DNA of 64,000 nt from contig JAFXMZ010000017.1 of the NCBI GenBank assembly GCA_017529925.1, forward strand, positions 1 to 64,000. The letters are read 5' to 3'. Position 1 is the first letter of the stretch. Every line of letters begins with the position of its first letter. The stretch comes from Clostridiales bacterium (GTDB taxonomy: Bacteria > Bacillota > Clostridia > Saccharofermentanales > Saccharofermentanaceae). The notes below the pieces were generated by a model. It was given only the letters and a program-made list of their open reading frames with translations, had not been told where the DNA came from and did no database searches. Position numbers and translations under genes: made by a program. Below, one piece after another: positions 38,876-47,336 of this stretch.

Positions 38876-40510
38876 TTAAGTAAGATAATACTTCATAAGC
38901 TTGTAATCTACTTCATAACCTGCATCAGCGGGGATGACCGTATCTCTCCATGTGTAGGAGGCTGTGGTGATCTTTGCGATCATGTTGTTGTAGATCCATG
39001 CGGGCATTACGCTCTCAACGTAGTAGACCGTTACCGAGGAACCGTCGGCAGACTTCATGACTACGACATCTCCGGCCTTCCTTCCGTCAGCGAAGAGCCA
39101 CTCGCCGAGAGCGGCATTGTCGATGTTGGAATAGTCCGTAGCTGTTGCCTCGTAGTTGGGATCTGCATCGATGGAAGCCTTGGAAGCCTTCGCATCATCA
39201 TAGACAGTACCGAAGTCTGTCTCATTCGTTACGCCGTTATAGTAGAAGCTCGAAGAACCTGTGCCCTTGAAACCTCCGCTGATGATCTCAGCGGGAAGAT
39301 CGGAATTCTTCTTAACGAGATCGGAGAACTCGAGTGCGGACATTCCGCTCTTCGCAAGTCCGTTAGCCTTGTTCTCGAGCTCGGAGAGAGCCTTATCAAC
39401 GTCAGCCTGTGTATGGTCATCGTCTACGACAACATCATTCTCGAGAGTAAGGGATCTGTAAACGACCGTAGGAGTCTCGTCAAGATATCTGTCAACGATA
39501 AAGAAAGCATAAGCGCCGTTCTCTGTCTCGATGACCTTTGCCTCGCCGATCTGTCCGTCCTTGAGGAGGAAGTCTGCAACGCCTTCGCCGTACATCTCTG
39601 CTCTTTCCTTATAGACGCCCTTGATGAACGTGATATCTGTCTCGCCTTCGAGGGATTCAGCCGTAGCAGCATCCTCTGATACCTGCTCGATGACAGCATT
39701 CTTAAAGGACTCGGAATCGACAGCCTTGGCTGCAACAGCCTCAGCCTTTGCCTTGCATGCAGCAATGGCCGCTGCATCGTCTGCAGCATCAGTCTCGAGA
39801 GACTTATCGAAGAAATACATGTTGATATCAGCTCTTAAGAAGTTCGTAGGATCTGAATCATAGTCTGCCTTAACCTCATCCTCTGTGGGACGGAGCTCGA
39901 ACTGCTGGGCATATGCCTGATACTCTTCCGTAACGGCAGCCTTCTTGAGGATATTCCTGTATACGTTAACGGACATTCCGGAACCGTAATTCATCTTGAG
40001 CCATTTGTCGAGAGTCTTGACGTTATATGTCTTGGAGTAGACATTCTCGACCATATCTCTCTGATTGTCGATAAGGAGCTCTGCATATCTCTCGGATCCC
40101 GAATGCTCCATGAAGCCGTTTTCCTTGGCAGCCTTGTTCATAAGGCGGCTGTTCATTGCCTCCTGAGCCGCAACATCAAGGATCATGTCCCTGTATGTCT
40201 TTCCGTTCTCCTCATCGTAAACAGTATCGAGAGTATCGGGATCTATTCCGTAACCCATGGAATTGATGACCTGGTAGTAATAGTACGAAAGCTCAGCAAC
40301 GCTGACCTTATCAACGGTCTCCCTTACTGTTCCGTCCTCATTCTTGAGTACGATCTTCTCACCCGTAAGGAGCTTCTGGGGAAGTCCCGAGATAACGACA
40401 AAGAAGCCCGCGACTATAAGGAGCACTACGGCTGTGATCACACCGACGATGATCTTTCCCTTTCCGGAAGCCTTCATGCTCTGGTTCGATTTTCCTTTTG
40501 TATTAGCCAT
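38876..40510 (-). CDS. Membrane-anchored SurA/PpiC-like foldase
   Basis: The 544-aa protein has a short basic N-terminus, one membrane helix (IIVGVITAVVLLIVAGFFVVI) and a large outside part. The helical region (about 65-220) resembles SurA/PrsA N-domains. Later stretches (about 225-340 and 360-510) carry alternating beta and helix as in parvulin-type domains, but the canonical active-site residues are not obvious. It probably helps fold exported proteins. It is flanked upstream by the 36-nt inverted-repeat array. Confidence 0.65.
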   Translation of the reverse strand: MANTKGKSNQSMKASGKGKIIVGVITAVVLLIVAGFFVVISGLPQKLLTGEKIVLKNEDGTVRETVDKVSVAELSYYYYQVINSMGYGIDPDTLDTVYDEENGKTYRDMILDVAAQEAMNSRLMNKAAKENGFMEHSGSERYAELLIDNQRDMVENVYSKTYNVKTLDKWLKMNYGSGMSVNVYRNILKKAAVTEEYQAYAQQFELRPTEDEVKADYDSDPTNFLRADINMYFFDKSLETDAADDAAAIAACKAKAEAVAAKAVDSESFKNAVIEQVSEDAATAESLEGETDITFIKGVYKERAEMYGEGVADFLLKDGQIGEAKVIETENGAYAFFIVDRYLDETPTVVYRSLTLENDVVVDDDHTQADVDKALSELENKANGLAKSGMSALEFSDLVKKNSDLPAEIISGGFKGTGSSSFYYNGVTNETDFGTVYDDAKASKASIDADPNYEATATDYSNIDNAALGEWLFADGRKAGDVVVMKSADGSSVTVYYVESVMPAWIYNNMIAKITTASYTWRDTVIPADAGYEVDYKLMKYYLT

Positions 40511-40555: not shown

Positions 40556-40584
40556 ATTATAATTCGCAACCCGAGATTATGCAA
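40556..40584 (-). promoter_or_regulatory. Promoter of the SurA-like gene
   Basis: TTGCAT (40579-40584), 17-bp spacer, TATAAT (40556-40561). The 36-nt repeat array starts 85 bases upstream of it. Confidence 0.6.
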
Positions 40585-40668
40585 GAAACGGACGATAACA
40601 GTTAATAGGCATTTCCCACGTGGAGGATATAACCTGTTCTACGTCTGCATTTGAAATATTATCGTTCT

Positions 40669-40932
40669 TTCTACTAAATCCTCAGATTATTTGATTTAGT
40701 AGAAGATCTGCCTTCACTTCTTCTACTAGATCATTAAAACCACCTGTTTAGTAGAAGATTTCCCTGTGATACCGCCCTTTCGCAGGTCAAAATCACCTCT
40801 TATTTCTACTAAATCCAAATAAGCCGTTGTTTAGTAGAAAAACATTCTACCAAATCAAAGATAGTCGGCATTTAGTAGAAGAAAACTAAGATTTCATTCT
40901 ACTAAATTTGATAATAACAGGTTTTAGTAGAA
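40669..40932. repeat. Array of five 36-nt inverted-repeat units
   Basis: Five units each span exactly 36 bases: 40669-40704, 40721-40756, 40804-40839, 40845-40880, 40897-40932. Each has the form TTCTACTAAAT, 14 variable bases, ATTTAGTAGAA. Arm changes are few (unit 2 TTCTACTAGAT, unit 4 TTCTACCAAAT; right arms begin A, G, G, A, T). The 14-base centres share no sequence. Gaps between units are 16, 47, 5 and 16 bases. The region is A+T-rich and non-coding, between the HAD gene and the SurA-like promoter. Function unknown. It is not a CRISPR array, because repeat and spacer roles do not fit. Confidence 0.9.
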
Positions 40933-40979
40933 ACAGCAGAACAGAGCCGAACATAAAACCATCGAATGGCCTTGCTCGA

Positions 40980-41621
40980 TCAATGGACTATATCCCTTAT
41001 CCTGCCGACCACCGTTGTCCCCGGATCGTTTCTCATTTCCTCCGACGGCATCTTCGTCCAGTCGACGAGCACGAACTTCACACCGGCATTTTTGGCGCAG
41101 AGCATATCGGGAAGGGCGTCGCCCACATAGACGACTTTCGATGGGTCTTCTAAGCCGAGTCGCTCCATCGCACATAAGATCGGCTCTCCGTCGGGCTTGT
41201 GCCTGTCTGTATCCTCCCTGAATATCATCACATCGAAAAGATCCGCTATCCCTTTAAGCTCGACTGTCGTCATGCAGGATGTCTTTCTCTTTGAAGTGAT
41301 TATCCCCTGCTTTATGCCGAGGCTGCGAAGGTAACTGATGTCGTCTATAACCCCGTCAAAGAGGTCGATCTCGTCGTTCCGGAGCATCTTTTCGTTGATA
41401 TCGAGATATGTTTTTGTGAGGAGATCCTGGAGCTTTTCGCCGTGCATCTCGAAAGTGTCCTCCAGGGGCCTTCCGATATACTGGATGAAGTCTTCGTCCG
41501 TTCTGTCGCACCTGCCGAAGACTCTTTCGTATGCAAGCCTGAAACACATCAGGATAACGGGGACCGAATCGGCGATAGTGCCGTCAAAATCATAGAAGAC
41601 GGCTTCGTACCGCTTACTCAT
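40980..41621 (-). CDS. HAD-family phosphatase (phosphoglycolate/pyrophosphatase-like)
   Basis: This is a 213-aa HAD hydrolase with motif I DFDGTIADS, motif II ITSKRK, a Lys in HKPDGEP and motif IV VGDALPDM. It resembles Gph/PpaX-type enzymes; the substrate is not set. The ATG at 41621 has AAGGA ahead of it and overlaps the CNNM gene stop by eight bases. It is the last gene of the gat operon run. Confidence 0.85.
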   Translation of the reverse strand: MSKRYEAVFYDFDGTIADSVPVILMCFRLAYERVFGRCDRTDEDFIQYIGRPLEDTFEMHGEKLQDLLTKTYLDINEKMLRNDEIDLFDGVIDDISYLRSLGIKQGIITSKRKTSCMTTVELKGIADLFDVMIFREDTDRHKPDGEPILCAMERLGLEDPSKVVYVGDALPDMLCAKNAGVKFVLVDWTKMPSEEMRNDPGTTVVGRIRDIVH

Positions 41622-42942
41622 CTTTTTCCTTCTCACCCGAAGCCTCGTTCTCTTCCTTGGGAAGGACGTGGATGAGCACCCTTGATATCCATCTCTCCTG
41701 AACATGCAGGACCTTGATACTGAGATTCTTATAAGTGACTACCGGCTTCTCGCGCTCTTCGGGGACCCTGTCAAGAAGCTGTATGACTAGTCCCGCGATC
41801 GTATCATATTCCTCGTCGTCGAGTTCCATATCGAGCACTCCCTCAAGATCCGAGAGGGTCATGTCTCCGGCAACGATATAGTCGCCGTTGGAAAGCCTGA
41901 TGACTTCCTGCTCCTCTTCGTCGAACTCATCGGTTATATTTCCGACCAGTTCCTCGAGCATATCCTCGATAGTGCATATACCCATTGTTCCGCCGTATTC
42001 ATCGAGAACGACGGCCATCTGCATTCCGCATGTCTTCATCTCATTGAAGAGCGACGATATCTTCTTCGTCTCATGGACAACGAGCGGAGTCCTCATGAGC
42101 GATGAGAGACTGAACTTCTCCTCTGATACGCCCAGAAGGTCTTTGATGTGGAGTATTCCCTCTATGTCATCGATAGTATCCCTGTAGATCGGGATCCTCG
42201 TGAACTTCTCATTCTTCGCGACGCGCATTACCTCTTCGTAGGAAGCGTCTATAGGGAGCGAGACGATCTTCTTGCGGTGGGTCATGATCTCCGAGACTTC
42301 CTTGTCGTTGAACTCGAAGACCTTCTCGATCATCTCCTTCTCGCCCTCTTCAATGTTTCCGCTCTCCGAGCCGACGTCGACCATCATCCTGATCTCCTCC
42401 TCGGTGACTTCCTTGTCATTGTCATCAGGATCGATCCTGAACAGGCGGAGGACAGCATTCGTGGAGAATGTCAGGAACCTGACAAAGGGCTTTGCGATGA
42501 TGCCGAATCCGCGGACGAGCCCCGAGGCGGCAAAAGCCCACTTCTCGGGATATTTCTGAGCCACGCGCTTGGGAACGAGTTCACCGAGTATGAGCGAAAA
42601 ATATGAAAGCACCAGCGTGATGAGCACTGTACAGAGAGGTACCGCCCACGACTTCGTTCCGGAAGGATCGATGAGCGATGCAGCCTTTCCCGCAAAGTTG
42701 CTCGCGGCAAAAGCCGATGACAGGAATCCGGCGAAAGTAACGCCGACCTGGATCGTGGCAAGGAACGTTCCGGGGTTGTCGAGGAACTTCAGAACCTTGC
42801 GCGACTTCTTGTCGCCCTCCTCGGCCTGCTTCCTTATCTTGGCATCGTTGAGCGTGATGACAGCCATCTCGGTGCCCGAGAAAAAGGCATTAACGAGTAT
42901 GAAGAATAAAACGACAAGAAGATCTGCAACCGTCTTTCCCAT
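41614..42942 (-). CDS. CNNM/CBS-domain membrane protein (hemolysin C / CorC family)
   Basis: The 442-aa protein has a DUF21/CNNM membrane domain (about 1-200, starts with a helix then FFSGTEMAVITLN), a CBS pair (about 210-335) and a CorC-type C-terminal domain. Family members act in magnesium or other cation transport. It follows gatB by 12 bases. Confidence 0.88.
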   Translation of the reverse strand: MGKTVADLLVVLFFILVNAFFSGTEMAVITLNDAKIRKQAEEGDKKSRKVLKFLDNPGTFLATIQVGVTFAGFLSSAFAASNFAGKAASLIDPSGTKSWAVPLCTVLITLVLSYFSLILGELVPKRVAQKYPEKWAFAASGLVRGFGIIAKPFVRFLTFSTNAVLRLFRIDPDDNDKEVTEEEIRMMVDVGSESGNIEEGEKEMIEKVFEFNDKEVSEIMTHRKKIVSLPIDASYEEVMRVAKNEKFTRIPIYRDTIDDIEGILHIKDLLGVSEEKFSLSSLMRTPLVVHETKKISSLFNEMKTCGMQMAVVLDEYGGTMGICTIEDMLEELVGNITDEFDEEEQEVIRLSNGDYIVAGDMTLSDLEGVLDMELDDEEYDTIAGLVIQLLDRVPEEREKPVVTYKNLSIKVLHVQERWISRVLIHVLPKEENEASGEKEKDE

Positions 42943-47152: not shown

Positions 47153-47269
47153 ATGTGGGTAAAATGTGGGTATTTAACCCCTGTTTTCCCACACTTTTAT
47201 CCACATTACCGCAAATGTGGGTAAATGTGTGGGTAAATGACACTCGAAAACCCACACTTTTATCCACAT
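47153..47269. repeat. Two tandem palindromes with DnaA-box-like ends
   Basis: Two hairpin-forming units (47153-47206, 47215-47269) share the 19-base right arm CCCACACTTTTATCCACAT exactly. Left arms read ATGTGGGTAAA...TGTGGG. Each right arm includes TTATCCACA (47197-47205 and 47260-47268), a perfect DnaA-box consensus, and the left arms add near-boxes (TGTGGGTAA). A partial third TCCCACACTT lies at 47300-47309. The stretch between the VanY-like gene (ends 47092) and the terminator at 47337 has no gene. Confidence 0.75.
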
Positions 47270-47336
47270 CTAAAAGAAATTTGATCCGTGCGGCCGCATT
47301 TCCCACACTTCGAAAAGAGCACGCCGGCGCGGCATA

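Follow-up and report, generated by a model that had tools for sequence, protein, structure and literature searches.

The locus raises the question of what recognizes an array of inverted repeats lying between two protein-coding genes, and of how that array came to be there. Five units of 36 nt occupy positions 40669-40932 of the window, by which we mean the whole 64,000-nt stretch of a Clostridiales genome that was analyzed; re-examination of the sequence confirmed both these coordinates and the inter-unit gaps of 16, 47, 5 and 16 nt given in an earlier sequence-only reading. Unit 1 (40669..40704) has perfect arms (TTCTACTAAAT and ATTTAGTAGAA) and matches TTCTACTAAAT-N14-ATTTAGTAGAA with 0 mismatches. 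Unit 2 (40721..40756; 2 mismatches) starts 52 bp after unit 1, unit 3 (40804..40839; 1 mismatch) starts 83 bp (8 helical turns) after unit 2, unit 4 (40845..40880; 1 mismatch) follows 41 bp (4 helical turns) after unit 3, and unit 5 (40897..40932; 1 mismatch) 52 bp after unit 4. A search that tolerated up to 3 mismatches found the motif five times in the window and not at all in 100 dinucleotide-preserving shuffles.

The motif does not occur only here, whereas restriction to this place had been named in the sequence-only reading among the signs of a probable chance local duplication. Apart from one lone weak match at contig C10, it is confined in the whole 2.2-Mb assembly to five arrays on four contigs (hereafter the TTCTACT class), all of them intergenic. 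The window array (contig C13) and that at C2:30967-31207 (between mreB and rho) lie between co-directional genes, the arrays at C5:37201-37526 and C25:76637-76972 between convergent genes, and the fifth, C25:13933-14217, in a divergent intergenic setting just upstream of a gene for a nuclease-like protein. Together they comprise 27 units, including two of 37 nt (C5:37305 and C25:14119) that were found by reading the sequence; the length of "exactly 36" nt thus holds for 25 of the 27. The arms, described as constant over 11 nt, are constant over 10 (TTCTACTAAA), since no more than 13 of the 25 units aligned genome-wide have a T at position 11. The 14-nt centre is variable, as had been stated, but not fully free, being AT-rich with almost no G or C at positions 18-19. 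Comparison of the flanks of the five arrays revealed nothing in common except the half-sites, and no TTCTACT array was found in the 23 other species of the genus that were searched. The 47 bp that separate unit 2 from unit 3 of the window array (40757-40803) contain an imperfect inverted repeat (GTGATACCGCCC..GGTCAAAATCAC), and mid-array gaps of similar size are present in the C5 and C25:76637 arrays.

The distances between units are not arbitrary. Start-to-start spacings of the 27 TTCTACT units are 41, 50-52, 61-63, 83 and 94 bp, i.e., near 4, 5, 6, 8 and 9 turns of B-DNA, and the eight that do not belong to the 5-turn group all deviate from a multiple of 10.4 by no more than 1.4 bp (P ~5e-5 against a uniform distribution, an optimistic value, as a single array supplies four of them). 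A wider set of gene-associated arrays (see below), which allows a robust test, gave 172 same-strand spacings, at 43, 51-54, 61-64, 73-75, 85, 94 and 102-106 bp with a few longer ones, and none at 55-60, 65-72 or 76-84 bp. When each array contributed a single value for each of its spacing groups (54 values), none of 20,000 random draws was as well phased; after omission of the 5-turn group (25 values), none of 50,000 was as good. As many of these arrays have half-sites of unrelated sequence, it is the phasing itself that is conserved, and periods of whole turns point to a protein bound on one face of double-stranded DNA, not to RNA hairpins. This spacing, together with the retention of half-sites and replacement of spacers between orthologous loci (see below), supports the earlier suggestion of half-sites for a dimeric protein.

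The competing suggestion, a family of transcribed hairpins whose RNA stem is kept by G-T pairs, fared differently. Its arm mismatches are A-C about as often as G-T: 7 G-T, 4 A-C and 6 other in the TTCTACT class, and 24 G-T, 22 A-C and 100 other in a second class, GTATAC. In the latter, inner arm positions 9-10 are mismatched in 42-44 of 56 units (a set that includes a few off-register matches). Mixed half-sites that break the stem also exist (e.g., L029:7904). The array stretch does fold far better than its shuffles (z -9.6 on the plus strand and -5.3 on the minus strand), as would be expected of a small RNA array or guide-like RNA; such a low folding energy is, however, what any inverted repeat gives, and no Rfam match was obtained in the window. 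Mismatch types and helical phasing led us to reject the hairpin reading, and a transcribed array of either kind is considered very improbable.

The window array lies between two genes that flank the system without belonging to it, both on the minus strand: a gene for a PrsA/SurA-like peptidyl-prolyl isomerase (38876..40510; weak Rotamase_2 match, below the cut-off) and a gene for a HAD-family hydrolase (40980..41627 by the start adopted here; ORF open to 41705). In ~27 related species the order corC-HAD-prsA is preserved; HAD and prsA are ~70-100 bp apart in the closer relatives that were read in detail, as against ~470 bp in the window. The conserved promoter of the prsA-like gene (40556..40584, minus strand; -35 box TTGCAT at 40579-40584 and -10 box TATAAT at 40556-40561), whose boxes are the same in the related species examined, is situated just outside the additional DNA, on its far side. 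Because the gap is short in the relatives and the promoter is conserved, the array is taken to have entered as a segment of roughly 390 bp (approximately 40590..40985), which is missing at the syntenic site of the ~27 species; its ends are approximate and not base-exact because the relatives are too diverged (HAD 46-70% identical). Elsewhere in the window (47154-47310), a second site cluster combines paired copies of TGTGGGTAAA, separated by 11-12 bp, with inverted TTTATCCACA/TTTTCCCACA; its blocks are spaced by 62-63 and 51 bp. It includes TTATCCACA, which equals the DnaA-box consensus, and the cluster may be either a group of DnaA boxes or another array class.

That no protein partner is evident nearby holds true for the window, but the likely partner is encoded on another contig, at C25:14367-15185, adjoining the sister array C25:13933-14217. 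This gene (264 aa) starts ~150 bp past the end of that array. A scan of genome contigs with TTCTACTAA-N18-TTAGTAGAA revealed arrays in two Clostridiales MAGs from ruminants: RGIG8162 (water buffalo rumen), which belongs to the same genus as the window's genome, and RGIG10087 (yak). The other matches were single sites, apparently due to chance, with the exception of one repeated Nomurabacteria palindrome (a perfect 36-bp TTCTACTAACTGGAACAGCTGTTCCAGTTAGTAGAA on three contigs of one genome; L027:5212, L031:7503 and L033:4826), which is probably an unrelated repeat family. Comparison of the ORFs around 22 array loci showed that a single family of ~265-aa proteins recurs beside arrays in three genomes (loci L006, of the window's genome, L038, L051 and L054). 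In RGIG8162, the half-site of the C25 array is also located upstream of the homologous nuclease-like gene. One locus of RGIG10087 (L048:888-1285) carries four GTGTAC-type units followed by four of TTCTAT type, like two flavours fused.

The proteins of this family are predicted to be nuclease-like on the basis of motifs and remote profile matches. The pattern S-K-x-E ... D-F ... E-H is invariant in all 60 aligned members (residues E170, D201, E216 and H217, with P200 nearly so), and the core acidic residues of the PD-(D/E)XK superfamily (E, PD, E) are present. The lysine of that superfamily is missing at its usual place (EH, not ExK), and the invariant K168 might substitute for it. Among PADLOC profiles, the C-terminal domain matched PDC-S68 (E 4e-28) and a PD-DEXK model (2e-8), while no Pfam or NCBIfam family and no PDB relative was found by sequence, and it is for this reason that we use the label "nuclease-like." A structure model of a 226-aa part of L026 (with three remote relatives) reached a pLDDT of 64 without a significant fold match and was too poor to interpret. 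To our knowledge, annotations of gut Firmicutes give its members no other name than "hypothetical protein."

The gene was found in 30 of 39 genomes of the same genus (1-8 copies each); a wider search at the level of the class found it in 10 of 196 genomes. Its five copies in the window's genome are well diverged, and some family genes occupy the same locus in several species. Apparent internal stops were considered as signs of gene decay, which was rejected, as all nine that were examined precede the true start codon. In the well-resolved orthologous pair L113/L108, a dN of 0.04 and a dS of 0.39 (dN/dS ~0.1) demonstrate purifying selection. The collections of phages, plasmids and viral contigs yielded only partial, remote relatives, full-length ones being nearly absent; plasmid matches H4-H12, on plasmids of Proteobacteria, Bacteroidota and other groups, are relatives of the C-terminal domain that form part of genes for helicases or AAA ATPases. 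Such plasmid relatives, and the resemblance of the C-terminal domain to the candidate defence families PDC-S68/S69, could be expected of a system in which the nuclease attacks foreign DNA and the arrays serve as sites of self-recognition, storage or assembly. We regard such a counter-invader role as improbable, since PDC-S68 is itself only a candidate, full-length relatives are so rare in phages and plasmids, and viral contigs contained no exact match of the motif.

Each of the five gene copies in the window's genome is preceded by an alternating array, and their half-sites are all different: TTCTACTAAA (C25), GTATACTATT (C8), TTTGGGATGA (C21), CTGTACTAAA (C35) and CGGATAACAA (C22). With an array defined as at least two forward and at least two reverse copies of one 10-mer (up to 1 mismatch) within 450 bp, arrays were detected upstream of 40 of 68 genes, compared with 8 of 69 downstream regions, 1 of 204 shuffled upstream regions and 1 of 113 unrelated genomic controls. 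Counted on either side of the gene, they accompany 36 of the 50 genes that come from the genus, 7 of the 11 from family f29, 3 of the 4 from family f18 and none of the 3 from family f5; by the same method, no array was detected at 24 of 70 genes. The gene arrays are composed of 4-13 alternating half-sites of one gene-specific sequence, and at L117, L096, L116 and L064 they end 11-30 bp from the HMM-defined gene start. Between the orthologues L113 and L108, the half-sites and a 74-bp phase have been kept, while spacers were replaced and units duplicated. In both, the gene-proximal 74-bp units are near-identical tandem copies and the distal ones have diverged, suggesting array growth at the gene-proximal end. 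Within the syntenic set L075, L076, L080, L084 and L122, the half-site differs between species. Half-site similarity correlates weakly with protein similarity, best for residues 1-60 (rho 0.13, p 0.002), which gives only a hint that this region may be linked to half-site specificity.

These data also bear on the simplest explanation of the window array, a functionless product of chance or of local duplication. Tandem duplication does occur inside arrays, as seen in two similar linkers of the C5 array and in the tandem copies of L113. However, shuffled sequences yield no units, half-sites are kept while spacers diverge, and the idea is refuted by the presence of the same array design beside dozens of homologous genes; we consider it the least probable of all the explanations discussed here.

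Arrays are copied within the genome, which the genes of the family are not. The GTATACTATT class, with its gene at C8, is represented in the window's genome by 57 matching units, which are distributed over more than a dozen arrays (contigs C3, C6, C8, C11, C17, C18, C21, C22, C27, C30 and C37; loci L160-L173), with partly conserved linkers (CCGAAGACGTC..TTCGG), and no solo array of the TTTGGGATGA class was found in the same genome. Two arrays of the GTATACTATT class, located in the interior of different large contigs (C22 and C30), share 98.7% identity over 231 bp and end abruptly; another pair (C3/C11) is 98% identical over 320 bp, again with abrupt ends, the C11 copy being near a contig end. 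Sites for a recombinase, also suggested in the sequence-only reading, are at most a conjecture, but these sharp duplications of sister arrays do show that copying can bring arrays of this type to new positions. By eye, the left junction of the C22/C30 pair is in both places a T-run after a terminator-like hairpin, and neither of the two duplicated pairs has an obvious target-site duplication. For the duplicated L161 array, relatives offer no informative empty site, because its left neighbour lacks synteny in them. Terminal sequences common to solo arrays, such as MITE ends, were sought among the five TTCTACT arrays and rejected, none being shared.

Multi-site, helically phased intergenic arrays, several per genome, are also what parS-like segregation sites or arrays for a nucleoid protein shaping chromosome architecture could look like. 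Nevertheless, the array sequences are species-specific, class sizes within one genome range from no solo copies to 57 units, and the partner gene is nuclease-like and not of the ParB/SMC type, which makes such a role highly improbable. A more serious contender, though in our judgment still unlikely, is a set of phased operators without any mobility, bound by an autoregulated DNA-binding factor whose nuclease domain may or may not be active; the solo arrays would then serve as regulon sites controlling the genes next to them, or as sponge sites titrating the protein. The approach of several gene arrays to within 11-30 bp of the gene start, the position of the window array just upstream of the conserved prsA promoter, and the intact, conserved state of the genes all agree with this. 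It is less easily reconciled with the C5 and C25:76637 arrays, whose position between convergent genes gives no reason to expect a promoter, with the window array being an inserted segment, and with the copying of sister arrays along with flanking bases.

We therefore favor, with a probability of roughly 0.6, the reading in which the window holds a solo copy of the binding array for the nuclease-like protein encoded at C25:14367-15185. Weighing against it are the lack of shared ends and of obvious target-site duplications, the remote nature of the nuclease matches with EH in place of ExK, the TTTGGGATGA class without solo copies, the 24 genes at which no array was detected and the weak correlation of protein with half-site similarity. 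A broader proposal is put forward more tentatively, at somewhat below even odds: that gene and array form an undescribed two-part element of Clostridia, in which each gene co-evolves with its own phased palindromic array, specificity switches rapidly, and solo arrays are spread by nuclease-driven copying, so that it would parallel REPIN-RAYT independently, with a non-HUH enzyme and with double-stranded DNA as its target. On either reading, repeats at whole helical turns would align protein dimers on one face of the DNA, and the encoded protein would bind cooperatively to the half-sites of its own array and probably control its own promoter if that array extends to the gene start. The protein may also be able to nick or cut DNA, and cutting followed by DNA repair could spread copies of the array to other intergenic sites. 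Each gene would remain a distinctive single copy while its solo arrays multiply, as in REPIN-RAYT pairs. If this is true, bacterial genomes have a second, unrelated way of hosting dispersed palindromes with a dedicated protein, and the multi-copy nuclease-like family acquires a role. There would also be dozens of natural gene-array pairs in which DNA-binding specificity shifts between close relatives under a constant array design, and in which the co-evolution of protein and site becomes directly testable.

Several known systems share individual features with the one described here. Clustered repeats of ~36 nt at regular distances, with variable sequence, recall CRISPR arrays, from which the present arrays differ by their inverted, alternating half-sites, by a constant part that flanks the variable centre, and by their helical-turn periods; no cas genes were noted among the ORFs neighbouring the window array. 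Neisserial dRS3/NIME arrays are likewise intergenic and combine constant arms with a variable centre, although their sequence differs. We know of no cognate nuclease gene beside each neisserial array and of no helical phasing in them. Like MITEs and other non-autonomous transposons, the solo arrays are non-coding intergenic copies whose protein is encoded elsewhere; unlike MITEs and insertion sequences, they have neither shared ends nor an obvious target-site duplication, and the gene of the presumed mobilizer does not multiply. The PADLOC candidates PDC-S68 and PDC-S69 possess a related C-terminal nuclease-like domain, but the match covers the C-terminal part only (in PDC-S68, the end of a ~1200-aa protein), and neither the N-terminal half nor the arrays have a match in these candidates.

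The closest parallel is the REPIN-RAYT system (REPtron), in which each repeat flavour has a distinctive single-copy gene with a same-flavour cluster beside it and dispersed extragenic copies, and in which several flavours coexist in one genome (PMC3116915). A distinctive gene, an adjoining array of its own flavour and dispersed copies are found here as well, except for the TTTGGGATGA class. However, the REPIN-RAYT protein TnpA-REP is an HUH (Y1) tyrosine transposase, whereas the protein described here is PD-(D/E)XK-like, and Pfam searches with the 60 family members gave no match to an HUH/Y1 transposase. REPINs are foldable single-strand hairpins with a GTAG tag, whereas the arrays are double-stranded and helix-phased, with 4-13 half-sites and variable spacers. 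They do not qualify as REP hairpins with a GTAG/CGTC tag, as their mismatch pattern is free of any pairing constraint, and GTAG occurs by chance in the arms of the TTCTACT class and not in other classes. The system would appear to work like REPIN-RAYT in outline, but fails the tests of that family in its transposase and its hairpin. A literature search on inverted-repeat arrays, nuclease-linked REPIN-like systems and the PADLOC family found no description in the open literature (mostly without subscription journals, and without preprints), which is weak evidence. We judge the gene-array system to be new because its protein family, its array design and their pairing each have no known counterpart that passes these tests; if "dispersed repeats with a dedicated enzyme" is counted as one kind, it would be a variant of that kind.
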